A DNA stretch of 64,000 nt from Roseovarius sp. (GTDB lineage Bacteria > Pseudomonadota > Alphaproteobacteria > Rhodobacterales > Rhodobacteraceae), in assembly GCA_029212365.1 (NCBI GenBank), contig JARGOC010000006.1, positions 1 to 64,000 on the forward strand, in the 5' to 3' direction. The notes beneath the pieces were generated by a model. It worked only from the letters and a program-made list of their open reading frames with translations. It had not been told where the DNA came from and searched no databases. Position 1 is the first letter of the stretch, and every line of letters begins with the position of its first letter. The translations under genes and the position numbers were made by a program. This document shows positions 23,002-49,014 of this stretch, one piece after another.

Positions 23002-23011
23002 ATCGGCCAAA

Positions 23012-23033
23012 GGGGCCGGTCACGACTGGCCCC
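23012..23033 (+). terminator. Hairpin after the TRAP-usp operon
   Basis: GGGGCC and GGCCCC close a hairpin with an inner GTC/GAC stem, eleven bases after the usp stop. An AT-rich stretch follows but no long T-run. Confidence 0.6.
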
Positions 23034-23199
23034 AATTTCGCAAAATATATCTGTTAAGCAAAAAATGCCCTTGGCCCAGCGCCGGGGGCATGACACTTAT
23101 TGTGCATAGTTTTATAGTGATAGATGGCACACTGCCCGATCTGGGTTTATGCTGTATCAAATACGGTATTGTGATGTTCAAAGATATTTGGAGAGTTAA

Positions 23200-24288
23200 G
23201 TGAGCAAACCCGCGTCAAATGAGCCTGCCTCAGCCGGGATTTCGGCCCGGCTGGCCCAATTAAAACAACTTGAGCGCTCCAAAGGTCCAGAAGAAGCCGA
23301 GCGCGCGTTGATCGCATTGATCCGCGAATTTCCCGATGCCCATCAGGCCTATTCTGCGCTGGCGCGCATATTGATGAAGCAAAAGAAAGGCGATTACGCC
23401 GCACGTGCCGCTGAAAAAGCCGCGGCCCTTGCCCCGCTAGAGGCCAAGCAACACACGTTGTTGGGGGTGGCGCGTATGCGCAACGATGATCTGCAAGGCG
23501 CCTCGGCGGCCTTTGCCCAGGCATTGCAATTGGACAAGAATTTCACCCAGGCCATCATGGGCGCTGCAGCGGTGAAAATGGCCGACGAAAACTATGATGA
23601 TGCTTTGGCGCTTTGTGATCGCGCGCTTGATATTGACCCGACACTTGAACGGGCCAGCGAATTGGTTGCGCGGATCAATATGAAACAGGGCAAACCCGAA
23701 GCCGCCGCAGAAGAGCTGCGCAATATCCTGACAAAGAACGGCGCAAACGACCGGGCGCTCAAGGCGTATCTGCGCCTGATGCGTAAAGAAGGCCACCTGG
23801 ATGAGGTGGTCGAACTCGCCCAGGAAAGCCTGACAACCGCGCCTGCCACGCCGCAATCCATCGCGCGCTATGCCCGCATGGTCTCCTTTGCCGGCAAACC
23901 TGATTTGGCCGTGGCCCAGTACCGCGCGCTGATTGAAACCGGCAATGCCCGCGAAGTGGACCGCGTGCGCTATGTGACAGCCCTCATCAGCGCAGGTGAA
24001 CTTGAAGAGGCGCGTCAGGCGATCACCACCCTGAATGATCGCCGCCCAATGCGCCCTTTGAAGGTCAAGCTGAATGGTGATGTGGACCTTGCCCTTGGCC
24101 AAGCTGACGCTGCGATTGAGCTGTACAAAGCCGCATGCAAAGGCGCGCGCACCGAAGGGCTTGACCCAACCGAAGCCGCCGGGCTTGAAGGGGCTGAGCT
24201 GGCCGCGGCATGGCAATCCCACACCTCAAAAGCGTTGCGCGCTGCCCTGCGTGAATTCCGAAGTGAAAAGGCCGGTAAAGCCGGTTAA
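23200..24288 (+). CDS. Tetratricopeptide-repeat protein
   Basis: 362 residues from a GTG with GGAGAG upstream. After about 25 residues the protein is a run of TPR helices to roughly residue 330 (ALARILMKQKKGDYAARAAE; DDALALCDRALDIDPTLERA; QGKPEAAAEELRNIL). No signal peptide is evident. Rhodobacterales often fuse TPR arrays to sulfotransferase domains; here the TPR protein stands alone, 57 bases ahead of a run containing two sulfotransferases, so it may be a separate scaffold. It is the first gene of the biosynthetic locus by position, though membership is inferred. Confidence 0.8.
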   Translation: MSKPASNEPASAGISARLAQLKQLERSKGPEEAERALIALIREFPDAHQAYSALARILMKQKKGDYAARAAEKAAALAPLEAKQHTLLGVARMRNDDLQGASAAFAQALQLDKNFTQAIMGAAAVKMADENYDDALALCDRALDIDPTLERASELVARINMKQGKPEAAAEELRNILTKNGANDRALKAYLRLMRKEGHLDEVVELAQESLTTAPATPQSIARYARMVSFAGKPDLAVAQYRALIETGNAREVDRVRYVTALISAGELEEARQAITTLNDRRPMRPLKVKLNGDVDLALGQADAAIELYKAACKGARTEGLDPTEAAGLEGAELAAAWQSHTSKALRAALREFRSEKAGKAG

Positions 24289-24345
24289 ATATCAGGTGCA
24301 CTCGGACTGAACACCCGGTCTGCGCCTTGTAATTGGACATAGAGA

Positions 24346-25176
24346 ATGCCCCGAAATTTCGTTTACATCATCATGGATAGCTGCCGTTATGACAGCTATG
24401 TTCGTGCCAAGACACCCAACATGGACCGTATTGCGCCAGGCCATCAACGCTGGAGCTACGCCTCCTGGACCGCGCCGTCGCATCACTCCATCTTCATGGG
24501 GCAGGTCGCCCACCAAAGCCCGAAACGGGAGTTGGCCTCTGAGGTTTACAAGAAAGAATTTGCCAAATGGGTGGATCGTCTTGATGTGCCTGATCTTTCC
24601 TTCACCAGCTTCGTGCCGGAACTCAGCCTTGCCAAGGTGCTCAGCACACATGGATATCGCACGACGGGTCGTGTCTCGATGCCGGTGTTGAACCCGTTCA
24701 CCGGCTTCAAGCGCTTCTTTGACGACTACAAGCTGATGTCGAACCACAATGATTTTGCCGGCATGGTCGATGAGATCGAGTTCTCCGACTCCCAGCCCTG
24801 CTATCACTTCATGAATCTGGGCGAAACGCATTACCCCTATATGCTCAAGGACGACAGCCTGCCCATCATCTCAGGCGTGCACGGCGTGGTCAAAGGCATG
24901 GATGCCGCGATTGCCCATAGCGGCGATCTGCCCGCAGAGAACGATGAGTTCTTTAGCCAGGAAGACATGACATCCCTGCACGAGCAACAAGTGCGTTGCG
25001 TCGAATATATTGACGAGCTTCTTGGCACACTGATCGAGAAAGCCCCCAAGGACACGCACTTTATTGTGACGTCAGATCACGGCGAATGCTTTGGCGAAGG
25101 TGACTATTTCGGGCATGGTCCGGTCATGCATGAAAAGGTCTTTGAAATACCGTTCCTTGAGGGCCGCAAACCATGA
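24346..25176 (+). CDS. Compact sulfatase-fold (alkaline phosphatase superfamily) enzyme with Thr nucleophile
   Basis: 276 residues, much shorter than ordinary sulfatases (400-550). Metal-site residues are seen at D11 (IIMDSCRYDSY), in TSDHGECFGEGDYFGHGP and in the HEKVFEIPF end. The catalytic loop reads WTAPSHHSIFMG: where sulfatases have C/S-x-P-S-R, this has T42-A-P-S-H. Thr cannot become formylglycine, so a true sulfatase is unlikely. A phosphodiesterase or a phospho-group transferase, as in LtaS/EptA relatives with Thr nucleophiles, fits better. No membrane anchor or signal is seen, so it is probably cytosolic. The stop overlaps the first sulfotransferase (ATGA). Confidence 0.78.
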   Translation: MPRNFVYIIMDSCRYDSYVRAKTPNMDRIAPGHQRWSYASWTAPSHHSIFMGQVAHQSPKRELASEVYKKEFAKWVDRLDVPDLSFTSFVPELSLAKVLSTHGYRTTGRVSMPVLNPFTGFKRFFDDYKLMSNHNDFAGMVDEIEFSDSQPCYHFMNLGETHYPYMLKDDSLPIISGVHGVVKGMDAAIAHSGDLPAENDEFFSQEDMTSLHEQQVRCVEYIDELLGTLIEKAPKDTHFIVTSDHGECFGEGDYFGHGPVMHEKVFEIPFLEGRKP

Positions 25177-26108
25177 GCGATGCCCCCTTTCCCGCGCCGG
25201 TTTTTGTGCTGGCCGGGCCACGGTCTTATTCCTCGCTTGCTGTGGGTATGATTGGCCAACATCCCGAGCTTTTCGGCGTTCCTGAACTGAACCTTTTTCA
25301 GTGTCTGGATATGGAAGAATTCAACACTGGCGAAAATCCCGACGGGTCCAGCAAATCCCCGTTCTGGAAATCCATGCGCCACGGATTGCTGCGTGCGCTG
25401 GCCGAAGTGTTCAGTGGCGAGCAGACCCCTGAAAGCATCCGCATGGCCGAGCGCTGGTTGCGCACCCGCGACCAGATGACCTCGGCCCAGGTGCTGCAAG
25501 AATTGGCCGAGGCCGTCGCCCCCCGCCGCATCGTTGAGAAAAGCCCCGGTATCCTGCGCAAAGCCGAATTCATGAACCGCATGCTGGCCGCGGCGCCCAA
25601 TGCGCGCTTCATCCATCTGGTGCGCAGCCCGATTGACCAATGCAAATCCGCCATGGCCGCAAAGGGTGGGATAGGTGTGTTGCTCTCGCTCAATTCTGTG
25701 GATCACCGGGATGAAGAAGCCCAGCTTGAGCCACAAATTCTGTGGCATGACACCCAAATCCAGATCCTGCGTTTTCTGGATCAATTGCCGGATGAGCAAT
25801 TCGTAACCCTCAAAGGCGAAGACCTGCTGAACGATACCGATGCCACGCTCAAGGCGTTGTGCAAATGGCTTGAAATTTCCGACGCACCCGAGGCAATTGA
25901 AGCGATGAAACGCCCCGAGGACAGCCCATTTGCCTGCATGGGCCCGGCCAATGCTCCCTTGGGCAATGATGTGAATTTCCTCAACTCTCCTGCTCTGCGC
26001 GAAGGCAAAGTCAAGTTCTCTGCGCTGGATGCCCCCCTGCCTTGGCGCGATGATAAAGAACAGCTGCATCCGCGTGTCATCGCCCTGGCCGAAGCATTGG
26101 GGTATTAA
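25173..26108 (+). CDS. PAPS-dependent sulfotransferase 1
   Basis: 311 residues, cytosolic. The N-terminal loop AGPRSYSSLAVGMIGQHP corresponds to the 5'-phosphosulfate-binding loop, and FIHLVRSPIDQCKSAM to the 3'-phosphate-binding segment of PAPS sulfotransferases. RIVEKSPGILRKAEFMNRML holds the usual KSP motif. It would move sulfate from PAPS to a hydroxyl or amine. It resembles the second sulfotransferase at 29011 in layout (both have FG-P-E near residue 35 and a shared C-terminal ending), suggesting duplication. It is translationally coupled to the gene before it. Confidence 0.85.
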   Translation: MSDAPFPAPVFVLAGPRSYSSLAVGMIGQHPELFGVPELNLFQCLDMEEFNTGENPDGSSKSPFWKSMRHGLLRALAEVFSGEQTPESIRMAERWLRTRDQMTSAQVLQELAEAVAPRRIVEKSPGILRKAEFMNRMLAAAPNARFIHLVRSPIDQCKSAMAAKGGIGVLLSLNSVDHRDEEAQLEPQILWHDTQIQILRFLDQLPDEQFVTLKGEDLLNDTDATLKALCKWLEISDAPEAIEAMKRPEDSPFACMGPANAPLGNDVNFLNSPALREGKVKFSALDAPLPWRDDKEQLHPRVIALAEALGY

Positions 26109-26111
26109 GCC

Positions 26112-26453
26112 ATGACCCAGCTATCCCCCCTTCGCGCGCCCGAACATCGTGCATTTATCGGCCCTGAATTTGGCGCTGGTAAAGATGGCCCAGACCCGCA
26201 AACGCTGAGCTATGTGCAGATCATGGGCAACCCCAAACTGGCGGTGTTGGCACGCCGCGTTTGGGAAGAGTTGCGCGAGCAATTTGCCCAACCCGATGAC
26301 GCAGCCTCCATGTCCTCAACCTCGCGCGAAGCTGAGGAATACCGCACTAAGCTGGAAGGATGGGCCGACATGTTGGAAATCCTTCTCGAAGAAACCCTCG
26401 CCGAGCTAGAGGCGATCAACGCCCAGCGCGCCGGTCCGGGCGCAGAGCTTTGA
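26112..26453 (+). CDS. Small unknown protein in the sulfotransferase operon
   Basis: 113 residues, three bases after the sulfotransferase stop. The N-terminal 40 residues are Pro/Gly-rich. The rest is a predicted pair of helices with strong acidic and Leu periodicity (EEYRTKLEGWADMLEILLEE), which may dimerise. No family was recognised. Its tight packing between a sulfotransferase and a propeller gene is the main evidence that it is real and part of the pathway. Confidence 0.65.
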   Translation: MTQLSPLRAPEHRAFIGPEFGAGKDGPDPQTLSYVQIMGNPKLAVLARRVWEELREQFAQPDDAASMSSTSREAEEYRTKLEGWADMLEILLEETLAELEAINAQRAGPGAEL

Positions 26454-26469
26454 TTGGGCGGATGATTTC

Positions 26470-27954
26470 ATGAAAGACGGATTGCCCAAGACCTTCAAAC
26501 CTGGCCTAGCCACCAAGGATTTTCAGCGCATTGCGATGAACGGTTTTGGCGACCAGCTGAACGCCTATCCACATTCCATGGCGTGGTTTCGTGATCGGCT
26601 GTATGTCGGCACCACCCGCTCGAACCTTTGCCTGTTTAAGGTTTCAAAGATTCAAAAGCGGCTGGACCGCTGGCCAGTGCAATGCCCGGAATACGTTTAT
26701 GATCAGGATATGCGGGCGCAAATCTGGTCGTTTGATCCGGCAGAGGCCAAGCCGGATACACCCAACTCCGGCTGGACCCTGCGCAGCCAATCCCCATGGA
26801 TTGACGCCGATGGCGAAAAGCTCCCGCGGGAATTGGGCTATCGTGGCATGTGCGTATTTCAGGGTGAAAGCGACGACCAAGAGTATCTCTATACGGCCAC
26901 CTACGCGCCCGCACGCGGGTTTGGCACACGCATTCTGCGCTCGGCTGATGGGGACACCTTTGATGAGGTGCCGATGCCTGATGGGTTTGATAAATCCATC
27001 ATCACCCTGCGCCTGATCGTGCCACACAAAGGCTGGCTGTTTACCAGCCCGACGGGCACGGCGGGCGGCAATCCCAATATATCGGGCAATGCGGTGATCT
27101 TTGGCAGCCCGGACCCGGCCAATGGCAAATGGCAGGTGATCAACCCGCCCGCATTTGGCGACCCCAAGAATATAGGCGTATTTGAGATGATCGGCTGTGG
27201 TGATTACCTTTATGCCGGGACGGCCAACACTGATGGCTATCAAATCTGGCGCACCAAGGTAGAAGGCAAACCGCCCTTCAACTGGGAATGTGTGGTGGAT
27301 CAGGGGGCGTTTCGCGGCAAGCTTAATCAAGGTGTCGCGTCCTTCACTGTGCACAACGGGTTGGTCTATGCCGGATCGGGCATTCAGCACGGCGGCATTG
27401 ACCGCGCCAATGGTGTGGGGCCTGCCGGGCCAGAACTGATCCGCATTCATGAGGATGGCCATTGGGATCTGGTGGTTGGCACAGAACGCGAAACACCCGT
27501 GGGGCACAAAGTGCCTTTGTCGGGGTATGCGCCCGGCTTTGACAACATTTTCAACGGCTATTTCTGGCAAATGGAGAGCCATGACGGCTGGATATATGTT
27601 GGCACGTTCGACTGGACAGTGATGGTGCGCTACTCTGAGCAGGAAAAATGGCCCGTGCCCTTCCGCAAAATGATTGAGCGGGTCGGTATGGAAAAACTGA
27701 TCAATTTGCGCGCGGGGGCTGAACTTTACCGCAGTCGCGACGGCGAAAACTGGCTACCAGTGACAACGCAGGGCTTCGGCAACGCGTTCAACTATGGTAT
27801 CCGGACATTGCAATCTACGCCCTATGGGCTGGCTACTGGGTTTGTTAACCCATTTGGCCCCAAAGTTGGTTTGGATATTGAAGATGAATTCCGCTATGTG
27901 GATAACCCAAATGGCGGATTGGAAGTCTGGCTTGGCAGCCACGACAAGGAGTAG
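26470..27954 (+). CDS. Predicted beta-propeller protein 1
   Basis: 494 residues with no signal peptide. Repeated Tyr-Val/Ala-Gly-Thr blade ends are visible: RDRLYVGTTRSNL, GDYLYAGTANTDGYQIWRT, NGLVYAGSGIQHGG, DGWIYVGTFDWTVM. Elements like LYRSRDGENWLPV recall BNR/Asp-box turns. The protein looks like a six- or seven-bladed propeller, probably binding or scaffolding rather than catalytic, since no catalytic motif is evident. It is followed after three bases by the lipoprotein esterase. A second propeller-like protein lies at 29892. Confidence 0.65.
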   Translation: MKDGLPKTFKPGLATKDFQRIAMNGFGDQLNAYPHSMAWFRDRLYVGTTRSNLCLFKVSKIQKRLDRWPVQCPEYVYDQDMRAQIWSFDPAEAKPDTPNSGWTLRSQSPWIDADGEKLPRELGYRGMCVFQGESDDQEYLYTATYAPARGFGTRILRSADGDTFDEVPMPDGFDKSIITLRLIVPHKGWLFTSPTGTAGGNPNISGNAVIFGSPDPANGKWQVINPPAFGDPKNIGVFEMIGCGDYLYAGTANTDGYQIWRTKVEGKPPFNWECVVDQGAFRGKLNQGVASFTVHNGLVYAGSGIQHGGIDRANGVGPAGPELIRIHEDGHWDLVVGTERETPVGHKVPLSGYAPGFDNIFNGYFWQMESHDGWIYVGTFDWTVMVRYSEQEKWPVPFRKMIERVGMEKLINLRAGAELYRSRDGENWLPVTTQGFGNAFNYGIRTLQSTPYGLATGFVNPFGPKVGLDIEDEFRYVDNPNGGLEVWLGSHDKE

Positions 27955-27957
27955 GTA

Positions 27958-28974
27958 ATGCGACGTAAATTGGTACTGGCTTTGGCCTTGATTGCCCTCG
28001 TGCCGATGATCGGCTGTCAACGGGTCTCGCGCTTGCCCGAGATTATCGCCAAACGTACTGGTTTGTCGTCATCCTCTCCGGTGCAGCAGATCGACAGTTC
28101 ACCAACTGCGTATTCCGGTGTCTCTGGGCAGTTGCAACAACGCAGCCTGTCATTCGGCGGCACCCAGCGTGACTATTTCGTCTACGCTCCACGTTCCGTT
28201 CAAAATGGCCAACCCGCGCCTATGGTTTTGGCCCTGCACGGGGGCGGGGCCAATGCGAGCCGCTTTGCCGATCGCATGGGCTTGGTGAACATGGCCGAAA
28301 AATATGGCATGATATTGGTTGTGCCACAGGCGCTGGGCCGCCCAGGTGCCAAGCGTGGCGGTGGGTCGTGGAATGCCAACAGCATCACACCATCGGGCTA
28401 TGCCGAAAACACCGGCATCAACGATATCGGCTTTGTGGACGCTCTTTTGCGCTCGGCCCAAGGCACCTATTCGGTTGATCCTTCGCGTGTCTATGCGATG
28501 GGCTTTTCCAAAGGCGGGATGATGGCATATCATGCGGCCTGTGTGCTGCCGGGCCGGATCAAGGCGATTGCGGCTGTCTCGGCTACTTTGTCCGCCCGGA
28601 ATTGCCCCAATCCGCAGGGTGTCAGCGTGCTGCATATCCATGGCACGAACGATCAAAATGTTCCGTTCAACGGCGGTGTCGGCGAATTCACCGGTGGCAA
28701 AGGCAACTGGCCCGCGGTTCAGCGCGGCCTTCAGATGTTCAGCAATGGCAATCAATGTTCCAGCCAACCCCAGTCGACACGCCTGTCCAGCGATACCAGC
28801 TGCACCATCAACACCTGTGGCAACAACCAAGAAGTGCAGCTATGTCTTGTGCAAGGGGGCGGTCATGCCTGGCCCGGTGCTCAACCGGCAAAATGGCAGA
28901 TCAATCGCAACGTCTATGTGACGCAAAGTTTTGACGCCACAGATTACATCGCGAATTTCCTTCTAAGCCATTGA
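27958..28974 (+). CDS. PHB-depolymerase/LpqC-family esterase, lipoprotein
   Basis: 338 residues. A lipoprotein signal peptide ends in the lipobox-like PMIGC, so the enzyme should be membrane-anchored on the periplasmic side. The alpha/beta hydrolase domain has the oxyanion loop LALHGGGANASRFADRMG, nucleophile Ser in GFSKGGMMAYH, Asp in HIHGTNDQNVP and His in GGGHAWPGA. Relatives cleave polyhydroxybutyrate or aryl esters. Within this locus it could cleave or transfer an acyl or sulfate-bearing ester outside the cytoplasm; that role is inferred from position. Two C-terminal Cys pairs may form disulfides. Confidence 0.85.
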   Translation: MRRKLVLALALIALVPMIGCQRVSRLPEIIAKRTGLSSSSPVQQIDSSPTAYSGVSGQLQQRSLSFGGTQRDYFVYAPRSVQNGQPAPMVLALHGGGANASRFADRMGLVNMAEKYGMILVVPQALGRPGAKRGGGSWNANSITPSGYAENTGINDIGFVDALLRSAQGTYSVDPSRVYAMGFSKGGMMAYHAACVLPGRIKAIAAVSATLSARNCPNPQGVSVLHIHGTNDQNVPFNGGVGEFTGGKGNWPAVQRGLQMFSNGNQCSSQPQSTRLSSDTSCTINTCGNNQEVQLCLVQGGGHAWPGAQPAKWQINRNVYVTQSFDATDYIANFLLSH

Positions 28975-29010
28975 CGACCCAGACCTAACTTCAGGATCGA
29001 ATGTTACCCC

Positions 29011-29895
29011 ATGCGTGACCCTCTTTTTATTCTGTGCCCGGGACGGTCTTTTTCGTCTGTGGTTTGTGCTGTTATCGGCCAGCATCCTGATGCCTTTGGC
29101 CTTCCCGAGGTGCATTTGTTTGCCGAACGCAAAGTTGGTGATCTTTTGGATCTGGATACGCCCATCTTTGGGTTGGTCGGGGCCACCAACGGGCTGAAAC
29201 GTGCCGTGGCCGAACTGGTCTTCAACGAGCAAAGCTTTGAGTCGGTTGAGCGGGCCAGCAAATGGTGCGAAGAGCGCCGCCATAAAACCGGCGCCGAGTT
29301 TTTCCGCGAATTATGTGAACGGGCCGGCGATCGTCTGGTGGTGGATAAAAGCCCCACCAACACCCATACCGATGGGGTTGAGCGGTTGTATAAGGCGTTT
29401 CCGAATGCCAAATTCCTGCACCTGTCACGTCACCCACGCGCTATGTGTCGATCCCAACACAAGGCTTATGCCCAACGCAAAGGCGCACGCGGGCTGAAGA
29501 AATTCGACCATGAAAACTATTGGCTTACCCGCCATCAGAGTATTCTGAAATTTAGTAAACGGCTTGATCCGGGACAGTACATGTTCCTGCATGGGGAATG
29601 GTTCTTTGAGTTCCCAGAGCTGTTCTTGACGCAAATATGTGAATGGCTTGATCTGTCCACCGCGCCCGATGCAATAGAGCAGATGATGCACCCCGAGCTG
29701 TCGCCCTTTGCAAAGCTTGGCCCTGACAATGCAAAATACGGCAATAATCTGGGCTTCATCGACAGCCCCCATCTGCGGGTTGGTAAAATCCCTTCGGAAA
29801 CCATAGATGGCCCTCTGGAATGGGTGACAGATCGCGAGGCGTATTTTTCCGATCAGACCCGTAGTCTGGCGTATCAATTGGGATACGATACATGA
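29011..29895 (+). CDS. PAPS-dependent sulfotransferase 2
   Basis: 294 residues. The 5'-phosphosulfate loop is FILCPGRSFSSVVCAVIGQH, the KSP motif VVDKSPTNTHTDG, and the 3'-phosphate segment FLHLSRHPRAMCRSQ. The C-terminus (SPFAKLGPDNAKYGNNLGFI) is clearly homologous to the matching stretch of sulfotransferase 1, whose version reads SPFACMGPANAPLGNDVNF. Two related enzymes in one run suggest two sulfation steps or two acceptors. The stop overlaps the next start (ATGA). Confidence 0.85.
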   Translation: MRDPLFILCPGRSFSSVVCAVIGQHPDAFGLPEVHLFAERKVGDLLDLDTPIFGLVGATNGLKRAVAELVFNEQSFESVERASKWCEERRHKTGAEFFRELCERAGDRLVVDKSPTNTHTDGVERLYKAFPNAKFLHLSRHPRAMCRSQHKAYAQRKGARGLKKFDHENYWLTRHQSILKFSKRLDPGQYMFLHGEWFFEFPELFLTQICEWLDLSTAPDAIEQMMHPELSPFAKLGPDNAKYGNNLGFIDSPHLRVGKIPSETIDGPLEWVTDREAYFSDQTRSLAYQLGYDT

Positions 29896-31076
29896 TGCCC
29901 CGCAACGATTTGGATCGCATCCTAGGCGGTGAAACCAACGCCGACACAGGGCCTCAGAATGCCAGCAGCACAATTGCGGCAGTGACCGACATGTCGTGGG
30001 TGGACGGCGCTGTGGTGGCAACGATTCAACGCACCGATGTGTTGACAGGCGGCGTGACGAGCGAACTGGCCCGCCTTGACCCTAAGGGTCATCGTCGTGC
30101 CTCTTTGATGTTGAACGCGCCAGCCGACACCACCGATCAGGCTATTGCGTATGCCATGGTCGGCCAGAATGGCCCCTGTTTGCTTCATCTGACTGGTGCT
30201 GATCTGCTGGCCCTGACACCTGCGGCAGCACCCTTGAGTAATGTCATCAACGGGCTTGGGTTGGGCCGCATTGATCTTCTTGTGCAAAGCTCGGACTGGT
30301 GCGCTGTATACGGTGTGACCGCAGCCGACGACCCTGTGCTTTATGCTATTTCGGGGGAAACGCCTGTTGGCCTGCCGCTTGATCCTTTGGCCTTGTCAGA
30401 TACCCGCCAACTGAACAACATCCAGATTATTGGCGATACACTTTATGCTGCGGTCGTCGATTCAATATCAGGATTTGACATCTATCATTGTGCATTGGGC
30501 AATGGCCCTGCGGCGTTTGAGCTGGTGTTGACCAAGGGCGCAAGACGCTTTGCGATCAATGCCGCCGTGTCTGGCATGATGCCCTGTGAACAGGGCCTGC
30601 TGATTGGCACCGCCGCCCTGGCAAACCCATCCCATCCGTTGGGGGATTGGGGACCGGAACTGTTGCTGATCACCCAAAGCGGTAGCTGGGATCTGATTGC
30701 CGGTCAGCCGCGATTTTCCCCAGAAGGGCTGTTGCTTCCCGCCGCCAGTCAGATGGCGGGCATGGGCCATACAGGCAATGCGGCCATTCGTGGTATGGCC
30801 CAGCATGGCACCTCAGTGGTCATCGCCGTGCAGGAATTTTCCGGGTCACCCCACGAAGATCGGCGGACTGTCGCGCTTGACCTCTCGGAGTATAGCGGTG
30901 CAGTGCGTTTGTATCTGTCCTCAAATCTTGAAGACTGGAAGCAAATTCCACATCGTTTGCCAAGTGACATCGGGGCGGTGAGCAGCCTGTGCATGACCCA
31001 AAACAGCATCTACGTTGGACATGAAGGGTTAGGCCCTGATGTGGTGCCGGTTCATGTGGTGGCGCTGGGGGATTAA
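29892..31076 (+). CDS. Predicted beta-propeller protein 2
   Basis: 394 residues, cytosolic. The sequence is a series of short beta strands with DGAVVATIQR, GDTLYAAVVDSISGFDIYH, EQGLLIGTAALAN and NSIYVGHEGLGPDV, like blade edges in propeller protein 1 (which has YLYAGTANTDGYQIW at a similar place). The C-terminal element LYLSSNLEDWKQI mirrors LYRSRDGENWLPV there. It is probably a diverged paralogue. The first 30 residues are unlike protein 1. It overlaps the stop codon of the convergent M50-HlyD gene by four bases. Confidence 0.6.
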   Translation: MMPRNDLDRILGGETNADTGPQNASSTIAAVTDMSWVDGAVVATIQRTDVLTGGVTSELARLDPKGHRRASLMLNAPADTTDQAIAYAMVGQNGPCLLHLTGADLLALTPAAAPLSNVINGLGLGRIDLLVQSSDWCAVYGVTAADDPVLYAISGETPVGLPLDPLALSDTRQLNNIQIIGDTLYAAVVDSISGFDIYHCALGNGPAAFELVLTKGARRFAINAAVSGMMPCEQGLLIGTAALANPSHPLGDWGPELLLITQSGSWDLIAGQPRFSPEGLLLPAASQMAGMGHTGNAAIRGMAQHGTSVVIAVQEFSGSPHEDRRTVALDLSEYSGAVRLYLSSNLEDWKQIPHRLPSDIGAVSSLCMTQNSIYVGHEGLGPDVVPVHVVALGD

Positions 31077-33430: not shown

Positions 33431-33585
33431 TGCAGGGTCTGTGATCCAAAATCGTTTGTGCGAAGTGCTTGAAAAACTTGGCTTCGCGCTGTTATAATGT
33501 GTTCTCGCGGAAATTACATTATTCTTGTCCGCACTTTATGTGCTGAGTTATGATTGACTATGTTTTTGAACCCTTTAACTGATGT

Positions 33586-34080
33586 GTGAACATAATGACT
33601 AAAAACGCGGACACCTCGGAGCAGGAAACCAGCGAGCTGCGCAAACGGCGCGAGCGCCTGGAAGCTTTGAAATCCAAACGTTCTGATACTGCAGCGGCTC
33701 CTGTGGCACCGGCGGCTGGGGCCGGAGCGGCAATCGGCGCGGGCGGCGGCATTGGTGATGGCGGGCCCAAACGTGGACGTCAACGCAAGATGCTGATGAA
33801 AGTATACAAGGTGTTGACCCAAACGCCGGCTGATGCAGGTGGACATGTGGCTGATACGCCCTTCACCGAAACGGGTGTTGCCCGGTTGATGGAACTGCTG
33901 CGTGCACGCACGTCTGATCCTTCCGCACAGGGGGCCAAAGTCGCCGGCGGTTTGCTGAATTTTATCAGCCCCAGCGAAGGCGAAAGCGCCACACCCAGCG
34001 GTGCCAGTGTTGAAAAGCTGCAGATGCTGGCACGTCGGATCGAATCCATGCGCGGAAAAGGCGCTCGAGTTGGCCGTTAA
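33586..34080 (+). CDS. Small unknown protein upstream of the megasynthase
   Basis: About 164 residues; the start may be GTG 33586 or ATG 33595. The N-terminus is a basic helix (SELRKRRERLEALKSKRSD), then an Ala/Pro/Gly-rich low-complexity stretch ending GPKRGRQRKMLMKVYKVLTQ. The C-terminal half is helical (FTETGVARLMELLRARTSDP; EKLQMLARRIESMRGKG). No family was recognised. The two basic helices could bind an acidic partner such as an ACP or nucleic acid, which is a guess. It is divergent from the M50-HlyD gene and 104 bases before the PKS. Confidence 0.6.
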   Translation: MNIMTKNADTSEQETSELRKRRERLEALKSKRSDTAAAPVAPAAGAGAAIGAGGGIGDGGPKRGRQRKMLMKVYKVLTQTPADAGGHVADTPFTETGVARLMELLRARTSDPSAQGAKVAGGLLNFISPSEGESATPSGASVEKLQMLARRIESMRGKGARVGR

Positions 34081-34184
34081 CGCAATTGATAGGATGGCCT
34101 TGATAAGGGCCATTGTTTAAGCTGTTTTACGTACCTAGGGGGCCAGATTTACGGATTTATGTGAGTCTGGTCGGATACAATTAA

Positions 34185-42287: not shown

Positions 42288-45200
42288 CTGAATATTCAGG
42301 CGATATCGCCATTGTTGGCATGGCCGGTGTCTATCCCGATGCCGAAAATATTGACGCCTACTGGGCCAATATCCTGGCCAAACATGATGCGGTCTCCGAG
42401 GCCCCTGCCAGCTGGCTTGGCCCCTCTGATCTGCTGGATCCCACATCGGATGACCTGCTGAGCATCTACACCAATCGCGGTGGATTTCTGGGCGATCTTT
42501 CGCGGTTTAACCCGGCCGAGTTTGGCACCATGCCGCTATCCGTCGATGGCGCACAGCCGGATCAGTTCATGGCTCTGCAAATCTGCAATGATGCTCTGGT
42601 TGATGCCGGGTACCGCGCGGGTGAGAACGATCACACCAACACAGGCGTGATCCTGGGCCATTCGGTGCATGCCCACCGCGCCAATGCCAATGGTGTGCAA
42701 CAGGCCTGGTATCACAGCCAGTTGCGCCATTTCCTGCAGGGGCTGTTCCCTGATACAGACCCCGCCCGTTTGCGCGAAGCAACTGATCTGCTGCAATCCA
42801 AAATGCCCAATATTTCGGCCGAGGCCGTGCCGGGGCTGGTGCCCAACGTCATGACGGGCCGTGTGGCCAACCGGCTTGATCTGATGGGGCCAAATTACAT
42901 CATTGATGCGGCGTGTTCTTCGGCGTTGATCGCGCTTGAACTGGCCTCGGGTGAATTGCGTGCGGGCAATGCAGACCTCATGCTGGCAGGCGGCGTCAAC
43001 ACCACCACATCTCCACTGGTTTATTCGGTTTTCTGCTCGGTTGATGCCCTGTCACCCAGCGGTTCCATCCGGCCATTCAGCAATGCCGCCAACGGCACAG
43101 TGCTGGGCGAAGGCGCCGGGGCGGTGGTGCTCAAACGCCTAGAAGACGCCTTGCGCGACGAAGATCGCATCTATGCGGTGGTCAAAGCCGTTGGTCAGTC
43201 GTCTGATGGCAAATCCTCCGGCCTTATGGCGCCTCGGCTTGAGGGCGAAGTGCTGGCGATGAAGCGCGCCTATGAGATCAGCGGGTTGAACCCATCCAGC
43301 ATCGGGCTGGTCGAGGCCCATGGCACCGGCATCCCCCTTGGGGACCGCACCGAGGTGACGGCCCTGCGTCATATCTTTGGTGATCGCCAGGGCGATGTTC
43401 CGTCCACGCCCATTGGCTCGGTCAAATCCATGATCGGCCATTGCATCCCCGCAGCCGGGTCGGCGGCGGTGATCAAACAGGCATTGGCCCTGACCCACCG
43501 TATCATTCCGCCCACTCTGTGTGACGAGGTGAACGATGATCTGGGCCTGTCCGAGACGCCATTTTATGTGTCCACCGAGGCACGCCCATGGATCAACTCT
43601 GCCCCCACGCCCCGCCGCGCTGCGATCAATGCGTTTGGGTTTGGCGGCATCAATGCCCACCTCATATTAGAGGAATCTCCGGTCGGGCGAGAGGCCGATG
43701 CCACCGCCGCCTTCCTGCCCCGCAGACCGGATGCGGCCCCGATTGAACAAGTCTTTGTGCTGAGCGCCACGCCCGATACCATGGCCGGCGCGATAGAGAC
43801 GCTACGAGAGCAATGCGACGGTGCTGAGGGCGGTGCTTTCGCCACTCTGGCCCGCGACTCTTGGGCCGCCAAAGGCGATGGTCCCGCACGCCTGGCCGTG
43901 ATCGCCACTGATCCCGCCGATCTGTCCAAGAAATTGGGTGCCACCGAAAAGCACCTTGCAAAAGATGCCACCGCCTCGCTGCAAACCCGCAACGGGCTTT
44001 ATTACGAACCGGCCCCGATGGATGGCAAAACTGCCTTCCTGTTTCCTGGTGAAATGGCCCAATATCCCGGCATGATGGCCGAGGCCGTCATGGCCTTTCC
44101 GCAGGTCCGTGCATGGTTTGATCTGGTCGCCTCGCTGTGTGAGGGCAAACGTGATGTGCGGTTGCAGGATGTCGCCTTTCCTCCACCGTCTTGTGTGAAT
44201 GACGCGGGGCAAAGCCGCCTGACTGATCTGTTGCACAGCGTTGATTACGGCTCGGAAATGGTCTTTGCCGCCGATCAGGCCGTGTTTGGCTTGCTGAGTG
44301 ATCTGGGCGTCAAACCCGATGCTCTGTTGGGCCATTCCACAGGCGAAAATGCCGCCATTGTTGCCAGCAACTGGTTTGACATGAGCCGCGTGCAAGTGGG
44401 GGATCTGATCGCCCGGATGAACGATGTGTTCAATTCCGTCAACACCTCTGGCGAAATCCCCGAAGGTCAGCTTTTGACCATTGCGGGCCTTGCGCGTGAT
44501 GAGTTTCTCAGCGCCTTTGCCAACCACGAGGGGCTGCATTTCACCATGGATAATTGCCCCAATCAGGCGATTGTCTTTGGCCCGGCGGATACGGTCGCTG
44601 CCATGCAGCGCGACGTGGTGGAAATGGGCGCTGTCTGCACCACTCTGCCGATTTCATGGGGCTATCACACGGAATATGTGGCCCCTATGGCCCAGGGCTT
44701 TGGCGAGTTGTTTGCTGATCTCAAATTGGTGCCCAAGCCCGTTCAGATATACTCCTGCGCCACGGCGCAGCCGTTTCCGACGGATCAGGCACAGTTCATG
44801 GACACGTCGATCGCGCAATATGTGTCTCGCGTGGCCTTCCGCGAGGCGATTGAAAACATGTATGACGCGGGGTACCGCCGGTTTGTGGAATGTGGCCCCA
44901 ACGCCACGCTGACCGCCTTTGTGCGCGATACGCTGCCGGGTAAACCCATCGTTGTGGTCTCGGCCGATAATCGGCGCCGGGGCATGGTGGCGCAACTGCG
45001 CCATCTGGTGGCACAGCTGTTCACCTCGGGGCTGGATCTGGATCATCCGACCCTTCTGGATCCGCAACAAACCGCCGACACCCAGCGCCGCGAGGAACTG
45101 GCCGTGAAACGCCGCAAAGCGCCGGCACTGCCATCCAATCTGCCTTTCCCTGATCTGGACGAAGCTGAGCGTCAGCAGATGCGTGATCTGGTGGGCGCTG

Positions 45201-46057
45201 GCCCAACGGCCGCACCTTTGGCCAGCCCTGCTGTCGCCTCGCCCACTCAGGCGGGCGCGGTGCACCAACATCTGTCGATGATGAACCAGTTTTTGTCCGG
45301 GCAAGAGCGTGTTGCCCATGCTGCTCTGGGTGTTGATGCGCCCAAGGCGCGGCAAATTCAGGTGCTGGACCTGACCGCGCAATTCCGTTTGCCAATGGAC
45401 TATCGCGCCATACTGATGCGCGGCGCGCCTACGCCCGGTGCCATGGCCCGCCATTTGGCTGATGATGAACAGGCGCAAGCGGCCCAAATGGCCGAGTATG
45501 GTGCTGATGCAGATCGCTGGAAGCATTGGAGCCTTGGCCGATTGGCCGTGAAACGTGCTGCACGGGATTACTTTGCCGATCATGCTATCACGCTGCAAAA
45601 CTCAGATATCAGCGTGGCAAAAACCGAAAACGGCGCGCCGTTCATCCATCTGCCTGCCCAAGGGATGCAATTGGCGGGCACCTCAATTGCCCATTCGGGC
45701 GGAGTGGCCATTGGCGCGGTTGCCGCAGCCCCATGGCGCATCGGTGTGGACTTTGAATTGCCTGAGCGCATCCGCGAGCCGGCCAATTTTATTGACGCCA
45801 TCCTGTCCGAGCGAGAGGGCGCGCAATTGCCCGTGCGCCCCGACGCGGACACTGCCGTTATGCTGTGGTCGATCAAAGAGGCCGCTGCCAAAACACTGGG
45901 CATTGGCCTCCAAGGGCGCCCGCAAGAGTTTGAAATCGTGGAATTTGACCCCGCAACAGCGGCAGCGAGGGTTGCAAATTCAGGGTTTACAGTTGATACA
46001 TGCTCGGGCCGCGTGGGGGGCGGGGTTTGTAGTATTGGGTACTTGCTGTCTGCTTAG
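42284..46057 (+). CDS. KS-AT protein with a C-terminal phosphopantetheinyl transferase domain
   Basis: 1257 residues; the true ATG at 42284 overlaps the previous stop (ATGA). KS, about 5-450, has an intact triad: C211 (DAACSSALIAL), H346 (EAHGTGIPLGD), H386 (GHCIPAAG), so it is not a chain-length-factor dead KS. AT, about 580-900, has S685 in GHSTGE but WGYHTEY (H795) instead of the usual AFHS. Around 995-1015 lies MMNQFLSGQERV, echoing the pre-ACP helix of the first PKS. The last ~160 residues are Sfp-like PPTase: SIAHSGGVAIGAVA, IGVDFE (D1156, E1158) and WSIKEAAAK (K1198, E1199). The enzyme may load the ACPs of its own pathway. Confidence 0.9.
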   Translation: MTEYSGDIAIVGMAGVYPDAENIDAYWANILAKHDAVSEAPASWLGPSDLLDPTSDDLLSIYTNRGGFLGDLSRFNPAEFGTMPLSVDGAQPDQFMALQICNDALVDAGYRAGENDHTNTGVILGHSVHAHRANANGVQQAWYHSQLRHFLQGLFPDTDPARLREATDLLQSKMPNISAEAVPGLVPNVMTGRVANRLDLMGPNYIIDAACSSALIALELASGELRAGNADLMLAGGVNTTTSPLVYSVFCSVDALSPSGSIRPFSNAANGTVLGEGAGAVVLKRLEDALRDEDRIYAVVKAVGQSSDGKSSGLMAPRLEGEVLAMKRAYEISGLNPSSIGLVEAHGTGIPLGDRTEVTALRHIFGDRQGDVPSTPIGSVKSMIGHCIPAAGSAAVIKQALALTHRIIPPTLCDEVNDDLGLSETPFYVSTEARPWINSAPTPRRAAINAFGFGGINAHLILEESPVGREADATAAFLPRRPDAAPIEQVFVLSATPDTMAGAIETLREQCDGAEGGAFATLARDSWAAKGDGPARLAVIATDPADLSKKLGATEKHLAKDATASLQTRNGLYYEPAPMDGKTAFLFPGEMAQYPGMMAEAVMAFPQVRAWFDLVASLCEGKRDVRLQDVAFPPPSCVNDAGQSRLTDLLHSVDYGSEMVFAADQAVFGLLSDLGVKPDALLGHSTGENAAIVASNWFDMSRVQVGDLIARMNDVFNSVNTSGEIPEGQLLTIAGLARDEFLSAFANHEGLHFTMDNCPNQAIVFGPADTVAAMQRDVVEMGAVCTTLPISWGYHTEYVAPMAQGFGELFADLKLVPKPVQIYSCATAQPFPTDQAQFMDTSIAQYVSRVAFREAIENMYDAGYRRFVECGPNATLTAFVRDTLPGKPIVVVSADNRRRGMVAQLRHLVAQLFTSGLDLDHPTLLDPQQTADTQRREELAVKRRKAPALPSNLPFPDLDEAERQQMRDLVGAGPTAAPLASPAVASPTQAGAVHQHLSMMNQFLSGQERVAHAALGVDAPKARQIQVLDLTAQFRLPMDYRAILMRGAPTPGAMARHLADDEQAQAAQMAEYGADADRWKHWSLGRLAVKRAARDYFADHAITLQNSDISVAKTENGAPFIHLPAQGMQLAGTSIAHSGGVAIGAVAAAPWRIGVDFELPERIREPANFIDAILSEREGAQLPVRPDADTAVMLWSIKEAAAKTLGIGLQGRPQEFEIVEFDPATAAARVANSGFTVDTCSGRVGGGVCSIGYLLSA

Positions 46058-46159
46058 TCCCTTACGCAATTTTTGACCGCTGATGGGCCAATTTGCCGCC
46101 ATGCCTTCAGCTCAGTTTTAGTATATAACCCGCCTCGCCGGACAAGTTGAGAGACACCA

Positions 46160-46438
46160 ATGAACAAAGACTCGATACAGGATCAGGTCATTTCTACCCT
46201 CAAGGATTTTATCACTGATTGGGGGCTGGATGCCGATATTACCCCGTCCACGACACTCGTAGAAGATCTGGAATTTGATTCCATCGACGTGATCCAATTC
46301 ACCGTTGAGCTGGAGAAAACCTTTGGCAACCGCAAGTTGGGGTTCCAGGAATTGCTCATGAAAGATGGCCGCTATGTCGATGATCTGTCCGTCAGCGAAT
46401 TTGCGGTGTTTCTGACTGGCAAACTGACCACGGCCTGA
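46160..46438 (+). CDS. Discrete acyl carrier protein
   Basis: 92 residues. The phosphopantetheine Ser is S41 in LEFDSIDVIQFTVELE, with four helices as usual. It lacks the DSL motif of fatty-acid AcpP (DSI here). GAGAG precedes the ATG. It follows the KS-AT-PPTase gene by 102 bases, so it probably carries a starter, an extender or the finished chain between the PKS proteins and the tailoring enzymes. Confidence 0.9.
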   Translation: MNKDSIQDQVISTLKDFITDWGLDADITPSTTLVEDLEFDSIDVIQFTVELEKTFGNRKLGFQELLMKDGRYVDDLSVSEFAVFLTGKLTTA

Positions 46439-46468
46439 GCGTATTTACTAATTTCTGGGGGTTTTCTC

Positions 46469-48076
46469 ATGACCAAGACACTTCTGATCGGCCTTGATGG
46501 CGCCACCTTTACTGTGTTGCAACCTATGTTGGATGGCACCTGCGACGAAGGTGTTGTGATGCCGTTTTTGGCCGGCATGATCAAGGGCGGCTATTCGGCC
46601 AACCTCAGATCCACCAATCATCCGTTGACGCCACCCGCATGGACATCTGTTTGCACAGGGCGCACCCCCGGCCATCACGGCATTTATGATTTCGTTCGCT
46701 TCGAGGACATGGGCAACGAGATGTTTTTTACCCTCTATGACGCCCGTGACATCCGTACCGAAACCCTGTGGCATGTGGCCGGGCGCGAAGACAAAACAGT
46801 TGTCTCGCTGAATTTCCCGATGATGGCCCCGCCCGAACAGGTGAACGGCTCGCTTGTGCCCGGCTTTGTGTCCTGGAAGCACCTGCGGCGTAACACCTAT
46901 CCCGATACGCTGTTTGACCGGATTGCCGCGATTGAGGGATTTGATCCCAAAGAACTGAGCTGGGATTTTGAACGCGAAAGCCAAATCGGCGAGGCGATGC
47001 CCGACGATGAGCTGTATTCCTGGGTGGCCAACCACCTGCCGCGTGACAAACAATGGTACAACATCGGCCACGCCCTGCTGAGCGAAGACAACCCTGATTT
47101 GTTTGCGCTGATGCTGGATGGCACTGACAAAATCCAACACCAGGCCTGGCATGTATTGGACCCCGAGATTTGGGACACTGACGTTCCGGAAAGTCGGCGC
47201 AAGGTGCGTGAACTGGTGGTCGAATATTTCCGTCAGGTTGATGGGTATCTGGCCGGCCTGCATGCCGCAGCGGGCGATGATTGTCATATGGTGATCGTAT
47301 CTGACCACGGGTTTACCGGGTCTGACAAAGTGGTGCGCGTCAACAAGTATCTGGAATCAATGGGTTATCTCAAGTACCGCACGCATGATGGATCAGACGC
47401 GGCCAAGCGCAGGGATATGGCCAATTTTGCCAATCTGGATTGGGAAACCTCACGCGCCTTTTGCCCAACACCATCATCGAATGGCATTGTGATCCGCAAA
47501 CAATCAACAAAGAACCCCAACGGCGTGGCCGAGGACGAATATGAATGGTTCCGCGACAAGCTGATCGCCGATCTGTTGGCGATGACAGACCCCGACACCG
47601 GTGAGAAAGTCATCACACAAGTCCTCAAGCGCGAGGATGCTTTCCCCGGTGAAGCAATGGAAAACGCGCCTGACCTGACGCTGATCCTGTGCGATCATGG
47701 CTTTGTCTCAGTGCGCAATCTGGAGCCTCAGGTGGTCACACGGCCTACGCCCATTGGCACGCATCATCCCGACGGAATTTTCATCATGTCCGGCCCCGGC
47801 GTTGCGGCCAAGCGTGGCGATGAAATGTCGATCGTGGATACAACTGCCATCGTTTCACATGCGATGGGCATGGATATTCCCGAAGAATTTGAAGGCAGTG
47901 TTCCCGGCGATCTCTACTCGGCTGAATGGCTCAAGGATCATCCTGTGCAGGTTGCAGGCCACACCGATGCCCAAGCCGCGCCCAAGGCCAGTTCGAACGA
48001 TGAGACAGAAATCTCAGGCGACCAACGCGAAGAAATGCTCGCTCAGCTGCGCCTTTTGGGATACCTCGAAGACTGA
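46469..48076 (+). CDS. Type I phosphodiesterase/nucleotide pyrophosphatase-like enzyme (alkaline phosphatase superfamily)
   Basis: 535 residues, no signal peptide. It begins TLLIGLDGATF (D10, first metal ligand). The nucleophile loop NHPLTPPAWTSVCTG aligns T54 with the NPP catalytic Thr. Further metal residues are in LMLDGTDKIQHQAWH, VIVSDHGFTG and GTHHPDGIFIMSGPG. It resembles the smaller Thr-nucleophile protein at 24346 in chemistry but is a different branch. In a lipid pathway it could move or remove a phosphodiester-linked group; the substrate is unknown. The C-terminal 40 residues are polar and end in a helix. Confidence 0.82.
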   Translation: MTKTLLIGLDGATFTVLQPMLDGTCDEGVVMPFLAGMIKGGYSANLRSTNHPLTPPAWTSVCTGRTPGHHGIYDFVRFEDMGNEMFFTLYDARDIRTETLWHVAGREDKTVVSLNFPMMAPPEQVNGSLVPGFVSWKHLRRNTYPDTLFDRIAAIEGFDPKELSWDFERESQIGEAMPDDELYSWVANHLPRDKQWYNIGHALLSEDNPDLFALMLDGTDKIQHQAWHVLDPEIWDTDVPESRRKVRELVVEYFRQVDGYLAGLHAAAGDDCHMVIVSDHGFTGSDKVVRVNKYLESMGYLKYRTHDGSDAAKRRDMANFANLDWETSRAFCPTPSSNGIVIRKQSTKNPNGVAEDEYEWFRDKLIADLLAMTDPDTGEKVITQVLKREDAFPGEAMENAPDLTLILCDHGFVSVRNLEPQVVTRPTPIGTHHPDGIFIMSGPGVAAKRGDEMSIVDTTAIVSHAMGMDIPEEFEGSVPGDLYSAEWLKDHPVQVAGHTDAQAAPKASSNDETEISGDQREEMLAQLRLLGYLED

Positions 48077-48105
48077 TTTCCCTAGGCTGACGAAGGCCAT
48101 ACCCT

Positions 48106-49014
48106 ATGCCCCGCCTCGACGTGAACGGTATCACATTGAACGTCACGCACCTGCCGCAAAGCCGGGGCCAGGGGGGAACACCTTTATTGTTTGTTCATGG
48201 GTTGGCCGCATCATCTGCGTTTTGGTACATGGCCGGGGCGCCATTATTGGCGCGACTGGGCGATTGCACCCTGTATGATCTGCGCGGTCATGGCAAAAGC
48301 GGCGTGCCGGACACGGGCTTTGGTGTGACCACGATGGCAAATGATCTTTTGGGCCTGATGGACAAGATGGACATAGGGCGCGCCCATCTGGTGGCACATT
48401 CTTTTGGCGGCATGATTGCATTGCTGGCGGCATTGAAGGCGCCTGAGCGTGTGGCCTCGATGATCCTGGCCGATGTACGCGTGCGCCCTTTGCAGCAAAA
48501 GCTGGAGTTGCCCGCGCGCAAAATCCCGGCCCGACTGGCAGACCGATTGGACAAAATTGGTGTGTCCATTCAAACGATTAACAATCAGGATGACGGAATT
48601 GACTATCTCAAAACGGTGGCCAAAATTCAACTGGCCGCCGGGGATGAAGCAAATGAATTGCTCAAAGAGATTTACCACCATCCACAGCTTTTTCGATCCC
48701 GCAAGAACGCCGAAAAATGGATCGCTCTGACTGAGCGTGCATCGTTTGTCGAAGACCTCAAGAATGGCGAAAGTTTTGCACCCAAAGATCTGTCACGCCT
48801 GACACAGCCGATGCTGGTGATGTATGGCACAAAGTCCACCACCGGGCCTTCTGCTCAGGCAGTGACGCGGCTGTGCCCCAACGCAATCCTGCATGAAATC
48901 CCGGATGTGGGGCATTTCTTTCCGATGTCACAACCACGGCTTTTCCTCAAACCAGCGGCGCGGTTTTTGCGGGCTGTTAACGCTGGGCGCACTTCTTTTC
49001 CTAAGAAGGTGTGA
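48106..49014 (+). CDS. Alpha/beta hydrolase, possible releasing enzyme of the PKS
   Basis: 302 residues of the alpha/beta hydrolase fold: oxyanion HGLAASSAFW, nucleophile Ser in LVAHSFGGMIALLAA, and the C-terminal His in IPDVGHFFPMSQP. No signal peptide. It is the last gene of the biosynthetic run, 29 bases after the phosphodiesterase. The megasynthase has no thioesterase domain, so this enzyme is a candidate for releasing the chain from the ACP; that is inferred from position and fold. A hairpin and a repeat element follow. Confidence 0.8.
   Translation: MPRLDVNGITLNVTHLPQSRGQGGTPLLFVHGLAASSAFWYMAGAPLLARLGDCTLYDLRGHGKSGVPDTGFGVTTMANDLLGLMDKMDIGRAHLVAHSFGGMIALLAALKAPERVASMILADVRVRPLQQKLELPARKIPARLADRLDKIGVSIQTINNQDDGIDYLKTVAKIQLAAGDEANELLKEIYHHPQLFRSRKNAEKWIALTERASFVEDLKNGESFAPKDLSRLTQPMLVMYGTKSTTGPSAQAVTRLCPNAILHEIPDVGHFFPMSQPRLFLKPAARFLRAVNAGRTSFPKKV

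Follow-up and report, generated by a model that had tools for sequence, protein, structure and literature searches.

A conserved secondary-lipid gene cluster joins a Pfa-like synthase to sulfotransferases and beta-propeller proteins in Roseovarius and scattered bacteria

Introduction

What might a bacterium make with a locus in which polyketide synthase (PKS) genes lie beside sulfotransferases (STs), phosphatase-fold enzymes, and beta-propeller proteins? Such a locus occupies positions 23200-49014 of a 64,000-nucleotide stretch of Roseovarius sp. DNA (the window; positions 1 to 64,000 of contig JARGOC010000006.1, assembly GCA_029212365.1); the source contig is 185,912 bases long and the assembly 4.03 Mb. 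An original prediction, made from the sequence alone, listed two PKS proteins, a discrete acyl carrier protein (ACP), a built-in phosphopantetheinyl transferase (PPTase), two STs, two alkaline phosphatase (AP) superfamily enzymes with Thr nucleophiles, two propellers, a lipoprotein esterase, an alpha/beta-hydrolase (ABH), and an M50-HlyD fusion, and proposed an undescribed system for a sulfated, possibly phospho-modified lipid exported to the envelope. Open reading frames (ORFs), family matches, and motifs bear out this gene content; the listed genes all exist, though a 113-residue gene at 26112-26453 (hyp113) had been passed over.

The locus is a genuine secondary-lipid cluster, both conserved and widespread. 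Its core synthase belongs to a type that is already known; what is new is the conserved accessory set, together with the chemistry it suggests. For that chemistry, we give about even chances to a reading in which trans-acting STs, with propellers as partners, sulfonate an ACP-bound chain and the retained sulfate yields a sulfated long-chain envelope lipid.

Results

Linkage of the gene set across Rhodobacteraceae

The family survey covered 394 Rhodobacteraceae genomes, not independent of one another, with cut-offs of E<=1e-150 for PKS-B (the shorter PKS protein) and E<=1e-30 for both the ST profile (A2) and the propeller profile (A3). PKS-B was present in 14 genomes, the ST in 15, and the propeller in 14; PKS-B occurred together with the ST in 12 and with the propeller in 13, and ST and propeller co-occurred in 13. 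Fisher p-values across these non-independent genomes were 1.7e-18 for PKS-B and ST, 2.7e-22 for PKS-B and propeller, and 2.0e-21 for ST and propeller. The ST lies on the PKS contig in 11 of the 12 genomes that contain both. Two PKS genomes, G142 and G216, lack the ST; the PKS there sits on short contigs (10.5 and 4.9 kb, respectively), and G142 also lacks the propeller. A same-genus genome (G278) contains none of the three.

The cluster DNA of 13 relatives was compared by best-hit tblastn with contig ends included, such that the counts are lower bounds. PKS-A and PKS-B were recovered in all 13, the propeller prop1 in 11, and ST1-/ST2-like proteins, the phosphodiesterase (PDE), and the ABH in 10 each, followed by the polyhydroxybutyrate (PHB)-depolymerase-like esterase (9), the M50-HlyD protein (7), the tetratricopeptide repeat (TPR) protein, the AP-like enzyme, and the ACP (5 each), and hyp113 and the second propeller, prop2 (1 each). 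A hyp113 gene is also found at loci L043 and L045. The PKS genes therefore do not travel without ST, propeller, and esterase in most relatives. The tailoring set as first proposed stands for these three conserved components, but not for hyp113, prop2, the TPR protein, and the AP-like enzyme, which are optional members. The set is not a chance assembly, as the larger part of it is found around the PKS again in related genomes; because gene order differs between relatives, the linkage exceeds what shared ancestry of one fixed block would produce. A Roseovarius metagenome-assembled genome (MAG; L042) carries the same locus, with 95-99% protein identity over the stretch that runs from the upstream genes of 322 and 870 residues to prop1.

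Distribution beyond the family

A prop1-profile scan of one genome per species identified 92 relatives, of which 80 were retained. They occur in Alpha-, Beta-, and Gammaproteobacteria, Cyanobacteria, Planctomycetota (Scalindua), and Verrucomicrobiota, and distantly in Poribacteria and Hydrogenedentota. Counts of ORFs within 10 kb of prop1 are lower bounds, as many of the 80 loci stop at contig ends; they include PDE at 46 loci, ST at 37, PKS-B at 36, M50-HlyD at 32, ABH at 30, and PKS-A and the PHB-depolymerase-like esterase at 26 each. Eight of the 80 have no PKS, PDE, ST, HlyD, or ABH ORF, four of these in Poribacteria or Hydrogenedentota; among the eight, L114 has TPR and AP-like matches, and tblastn recovers part of an ABH in L067. 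Rubrivivax and Trichocoleus are among the carriers of a recurring string PKS-B, ACP, PDE, ABH, prop1, and the ST family (E<=1e-15) is present in 27 of 28 chosen whole genomes carrying prop1.

The prop1 tree (42 rows) mixes phyla, joining Rhodovulum adriaticum with Lamprocystis (100/100) and Scalindua with Halioglobus (100/99). This topology is compatible with horizontal spread of the prop1 sequences, though no proof of transfer; the cluster is scattered and has probably spread horizontally.

A Pfa-like synthase with its own PPTase

PKS-A (34185-42287, forward strand, as are all genes below unless stated; 2700 residues) contains a FabK-like enoyl reductase (ER), ketosynthase (KS), acyltransferase (AT), ACP, ketoreductase (KR), and dehydratase (DH), and passes the TIGR02813 (PfaA) model with 1052.4 bits against a cut-off of 1010.1. 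PKS-B (42284-46057, 1257 residues) contains KS, AT, and a fused PPTase (PF01648), and the discrete ACP (46160-46438; PF00550) carries a DSID motif. Catalytic motifs were found for the KS Cys, AT Ser, ACP Ser, KR, and PPTase, the PPTase motif of PKS-B being SIAHS. With its PfaA-type KS-AT-ACP-KR protein, the predicted synthase falls among Pfa-like secondary-lipid synthases in the broad sense. Residues 1-325 of PKS-A (34185-35160) align weakly (23%) with its own FabK-like ER, with a common ExC/ECxG...FVL stretch, and may represent a degenerate second ER. Among plasmid records, the best-listed PKS-B match stood at 35%. A second PKS frame of 2172 residues lies outside the window in the same genome (contig C6 at 21527-23620).

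A canonical synthase for polyunsaturated fatty acids (PUFA) such as eicosapentaenoic and docosahexaenoic acid is marked by a PfaC-like protein with dehydratase domains of FabA type. No FabA family appears among the Pfam matches of the cluster proteins at E<=0.001, and the DH of PKS-A is instead of PKS type (PF21089, PF14765); this identity was rejected. A heterocyst glycolipid (hgl) island carries hgd ABC exporter and glycosyltransferase genes; the Pfam families matched by the cluster's 14 genes include neither an ABC exporter nor a glycosyltransferase, and this candidate was likewise rejected. Deep-branching hgl islands of unknown product have been described in, for example, Gloeobacter violaceus and Aphanocapsa lilacina HA4352-LM1 (PMC11804610). 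Such islands resemble the cluster in their Pfa-related PKS, and the Aphanocapsa strain is common to both: it carries PKS, ACP, PDE, and propeller together (L076). They differ in the exporter and glycosyltransferase just named, and the main text of that article mentions neither a sulfotransferase nor a propeller.

A further close precedent lies within the family. Dinoroseobacter shibae was listed in 2011 as a carrier of a Type O secondary-lipid synthase with an uncharacterised product, together with Parvularcula bermudensis and Gloeobacter violaceus, and Type O was placed in the hShxH PPTase class (Shulse and Allen, PMC3098273), which the SIAHS motif fits as that class is given there. D. shibae DFL 12 (G035) has one PKS-B relative at E<=1e-150, its PKS-A and PKS-B relatives both at 42%, and it also has a PDE, ABH, propeller, ST, esterase, and HlyD protein. 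The class is, however, defined in that source on the synthase alone, and the likeness drawn here runs through the D. shibae genome and the PPTase motif rather than through Type O sequences. The main text of the same article mentions neither a sulfotransferase nor a phosphodiesterase, and none of the papers listed by searches of open-licence PMC literature has a description of the gene set in its title or the start of its abstract. As regards an undescribed system, the original prediction thus holds for the conserved accessory set but not for the PKS class, at least as the latter is listed in D. shibae.

Sulfotransferases related to those of CurM and olefin synthase

Both STs match PF13469, ST1 (25173-26108) at 85.4 bits and ST2 (29011-29895) at 77.4 bits, and both are putative users of 3'-phosphoadenosine 5'-phosphosulfate (PAPS); adenosine 5'-phosphosulfate (APS) kinase is encoded in the same genome, so that a PAPS supply is available. 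At E<=0.01 the only PDB sequences matched by ST1 are the STs of CurM (1.1e-16) and olefin synthase (OLS; 4.2e-8), and the only ones matched by ST2 are again those of OLS (1.2e-14) and CurM (2.4e-13). A profile of 23 cluster STs gave 133.0 bits on the OLS ST and 129.9 on the CurM ST, with at most 42.5 for the 28 other PDB sequences listed. By these scores, the cluster STs are closer to the CurM and OLS STs than to the other sulfotransferases compared. Three of the 23 also gave weak matches to the NoeE nodulation sulfotransferase (best E 8e-5).

In 145 cyanobacterial genomes, where up to 16 candidates per genome were scored, the ST profile returned at least 32 matches (E<=1e-12). At least 18 are stand-alone ORFs of 312-385 residues (280-421 bits), and at least 12 are domains inside PKS frames of 1213-3020 residues (93-148 bits); two weaker ORFs among the candidates scored have 462 residues (91 bits) and 372 residues (52 bits). 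Of the 12 long-frame loci, nine were fetched, and in six a thioesterase (TE)-type domain follows the ST, for which reason these frames are termed olefin-synthase-type. A model of the nine PKS-embedded ST domains scored 52-121 bits on the 23 cluster STs, as compared with 22.8 bits on another PF13469 protein of the same genome. From these comparisons we conclude that the cluster STs are relatives of ACP-dependent polyketide sulfotransferases, and they would accordingly be expected to use acyl-ACP.

The OLS mechanism has been described (PMC3903477). The cluster resembles OLS and CurM ST-TE systems in ST kinship and in a TE-like hydrolase with its acid at beta6; it differs in having separate ST, ACP, and hydrolase proteins, several STs, no FAAL-type domain, and no FNR motif. 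No AMP-binding/FAAL family occurs among the Pfam matches of the cluster genes, and with ST and TE unfused as well, an olefin synthase proper is ruled out.

The tailoring part of the locus (27958-29895) looks mosaic among relatives. In Roseovarius MAG L042 (11489-13438) the esterase is only 76% identical and is followed by a different sulfotransferase (37% to ST2), and both window-type sulfotransferases are present in L043 and L044.

Propeller proteins as neighbours of the sulfotransferases

In the window, each ST has a propeller neighbour, in the arrangements ST1-hyp113-prop1 and ST2-prop2. More broadly, a prop1-type ORF lies within 600 bases of 30 of 54 ST ORFs and within 1500 bases of 36. 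In Actibacterium mucosum (G112) and Roseivivax lentus (G357), whose STs are 41% identical to each other, the ST carries a fused C-terminal domain that matches PQQ_2 propellers (E 3.6e-7 and 0.062). The proposed functional link between ST and propeller is this genomic neighbourhood. The kinship of the STs to CurM and OLS, and their frequent adjacency and occasional fusion to propellers, are new here; searches of the open-licence PMC literature found no report of ST-propeller pairing or fusion.

No Pfam family matches prop1 (26470-27954), which serves as the cluster marker, or prop2 (29892-31076), even with the threshold relaxed to E<=10. The AlphaFold model of prop1 is a beta-propeller (pLDDT 93.2, pTM 0.93), and prop2 is a paralogue of prop1, with 28% identity across query residues 224-377 (E 4.1e-10). 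PHROGs gave no match to prop1 and one marginal match to prop2 (E 0.0099), and plasmid records gave none to prop1. The idea of an arylsulfotransferase (AssT)-type propeller was set aside, being without Pfam support at E<=10; AssT is also absent from the fold matches listed, although that absence carries no weight.

Foldseek placed the Diels-Alderases EupfF and PycR1 at ranks 1 and 27 for prop1. In VIA-align, prop1 scored Z 27.3 against CylK (7ron; 3.8 A, 335 residues), Z 28.4 against virginiamycin B lyase (2z2p; 2.4 A, 288 residues), and Z 28.3 against Ski8; since unrelated propellers score like CylK, the comparison shows fold only. Profiles of 9 and 42 sequences gave only noise among PDB sequences, and CylK kinship was rejected. 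prop1 aligns with CylK residues 249-651 only, and Arg105 of CylK is located in the N-terminal domain (PMC8916777). With CylK and BrtB, prop1 shares a beta-propeller fold and a natural-product context, but it differs in having neither a sequence match nor the Arg105-bearing domain. In one further genome (G307; L033 7579-10230), prop1 continues into a fused NAD-dependent epimerase-type domain (PF01370, E 7.3e-32), and the fusion adjoins further epimerase and short-chain dehydrogenase/reductase genes.

Hydrolase, phospho-enzymes, and envelope proteins

In ABH (48106-49014), assigned by family match, the triad Ser99-Asp123-His270 is conserved throughout the 20 homologues compared; its acid occupies beta6, and the beta7 position holds Ser (18) or Thr (2). 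Six olefin-synthase-type TEs have Glu at beta6, Ser at beta7, and an FNR motif after beta7. All 20 ABH homologues have Asp in place of Glu and no FNR, which is present in 6 of 6 of these TEs, ruling out ABH as a true OLS/CurM thioesterase; its profile scores up to 127 bits on ordinary PDB esterases, compared with 70-83 bits on the olefin-synthase-type TEs.

The PDE (46469-48076; PF01663, 142.1 bits) has Thr at the nucleophile position. Its model (pLDDT 88.6) aligns with ENPP1 (Z 27.0, 363 residues, 3.7 A) and with phosphonoacetate hydrolase (Z 24.5, 355 residues, 3.0 A), and T54, D217, H224, D279, H280, and H432 are invariant in 19 of 19 sequences; by analogy we take the conserved residues to include the metal ligands. 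The modelled fold and this Thr/metal-ligand set mark it as a nucleotide pyrophosphatase/phosphodiesterase (NPP)-type, or type I, phosphodiesterase. The AP-like enzyme (24346-25176; PF00884, 50.5 bits) also has Thr at the nucleophile position, with T42, D244, and H245 invariant in 11 of 11 aligned. No signal peptide is apparent by eye in either enzyme.

The gene at 31073-33430, on the reverse strand, encodes an M50-like membrane domain fused to an adaptor matching HlyD families. The HlyD half of the predicted M50-HlyD fusion stands; the M50 protease does not, as the HExxH zinc motif is absent from the window copy and from 28 of 28 homologues, which rules out a site-2 protease. By its sequence, the M50 half is best described as a pseudo-protease membrane domain. 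The PHB-depolymerase-like esterase (27958-28974; NF050058, 158.8 bits against a cut-off of 150) reads as a lipoprotein by its N-terminus. Look-alikes of TolC-type outer-membrane factors (X10, X31, by sequence starts) occur at 7 of the 80 prop1 loci, and a TauD-family dioxygenase (PF02668, X1) also at 7, for example L072 4263-5216. The clusters of two genomes, G165 (L036/L037) and G366 (L023/L024), have several neighbouring genes in common (families F23-F27), which by their sequence starts resemble capsule-export and sugar-mutase genes.

By gene order and overlaps, the locus falls into three blocks: 23200-31076 (forward), the single gene 31073-33430 (reverse), and 34185-49014 (forward), with 4-base overlaps at the AP-like/ST1, ST2/prop2, and PKS-A/PKS-B junctions. 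The first block opens with the TPR protein, an optional partner matching TPR families (23200-24288), and hyp113 between ST1 and prop1 has no Pfam or PHROGs match. An ORF at 33514-34113 (reverse) has no Pfam or NCBIfam match and flat codon-position GC, and is taken as probably non-coding. GC content is 0.579 in the locus and 0.568 in its flanks, so that composition gives no sign of recent import.

Discussion

A proposed pathway and its difficulties

In the proposed pathway, PKS-A and PKS-B, as an iterative synthase of Pfa-like type that brings its own PPTase, would build a long hydroxylated acyl chain that is finished on, or handed to, the discrete ACP. ST1 and ST2 would draw on PAPS and sulfonate hydroxyls of the ACP-bound chain in trans, each paired with a propeller (ST1 with prop1, ST2 with prop2). 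ABH might then free the chain, the PDE and AP-like enzyme could process phospho- or sulfo-ester intermediates, and the pseudo-M50-HlyD protein and lipoprotein esterase may move the product into or across the envelope. With PKS and tailoring genes acting as a unit, a sulfonated chain is an economical reading, in keeping with the sulfated long-chain product first envisaged. We favour a sulfate that is retained rather than one that leaves: two or more different STs and a HlyD protein are easier to reconcile with a sulfate that stays on and is exported than with elimination in one step. The suggested export draws on the HlyD half, the lipoprotein, and the TolC-like neighbours at 7 of 80 loci. For a phospho-modified product, the two AP-superfamily enzymes are the only evidence. 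Sulfur-containing aminolipids have been described from roseobacters (PMC8319176).

Several observations count against this pathway. In G112 the ST lies on a different contig from the PKS; PKS-B is missing from G018, which has an ST-propeller pair, and from G038 and G133, which have only the ST, weakly in the latter (1.4e-32); and the L113 genome has a propeller without an ST match. A prop1-type ORF is missing within 600 bases of 24 of the 54 STs, and in one of the two ST fusions the PQQ_2 match is weak (E 0.062). No dedicated ABC or MFS exporter is among the Pfam families at 23.2-49.0 kb. The ST kinship to OLS and CurM is also compatible with sulfate as a leaving group. The pair in G018 (L122 17113-19387) is adjacent, with 40% identity to ST2 and 34% to prop1, and is perhaps a module serving another substrate.

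Alternative explanations

The main rival to a retained sulfate is alkene formation by what would be a split-up OLS/CurM system: the ST sulfonates a beta-hydroxyacyl-ACP, and ABH releases and decarboxylates the chain and eliminates the sulfate, only a leaving group here, to give a long-chain terminal alkene. The ST kinship speaks for this, as does an ABH whose beta6 acid and beta7 Ser/Thr recall the six olefin-synthase-type TEs. Yet the Asp-for-Glu exchange, the FNR motif missing throughout, and a profile that fits other PDB esterases better count against it, as do several STs per cluster and a HlyD protein and lipoprotein esterase left without a role; we regard alkene formation as unlikely, if well short of negligible. 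PF13469 is a broad family, and the STs in G018, G038, and G133 without PKS-B, together with the weak NoeE matches, would agree with STs that modify a cell-surface sugar or other soluble acceptor while the PKS supplies a lipid anchor independently, such that the activities come together at the envelope only. This arrangement seems improbable given that the nearest solved relatives are polyketide STs, that co-occurrence with the PKS is strong, and that no glycosyltransferase family is found among the window cluster proteins.

It is more doubtful still that an ordinary PUFA or heterocyst-glycolipid-type synthase merely happens to have unrelated neighbours. PKS-A does pass the PfaA model, and the hgl-island organism Aphanocapsa lilacina HA4352-LM1, as described in PMC11804610, has PKS, ACP, PDE, and propeller together; set against this are the co-occurrence statistics, the order PKS-B, ACP, PDE, ABH, prop1 recurring across several groups, and a cluster in which families for a FabA-type dehydratase, an ABC exporter, and a glycosyltransferase are all missing. 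Lastly, ST and propeller could form a coupling module in which an alkyl sulfate is made and then displaced by a carbon or oxygen nucleophile, as CylK and BrtB do with alkyl chlorides; drawn by analogy, this is a long shot. Were it true, the cluster would use sulfate as a leaving group to build coupled or branched long-chain lipids, and would do so across four phyla or more.

Implications

With sulfonation of an ACP-bound chain preferred over these alternatives, a Type O synthase whose product is listed as uncharacterised (PMC3098273) gains partner enzymes and hence a chemical prediction, and its carrier D. shibae is genetically accessible, deletion mutants having been made (PMC5398030). The pairing and fusion of STs with propellers may amount to a partnership of enzymes that is new. 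The scattered carriers, among them phototrophs, Competibacteraceae, an anammox-type planctomycete, and marine heterotrophs, point to a useful lipid, and the cluster, with similar gene sets in scattered bacteria of several phyla, probably makes a widespread one.

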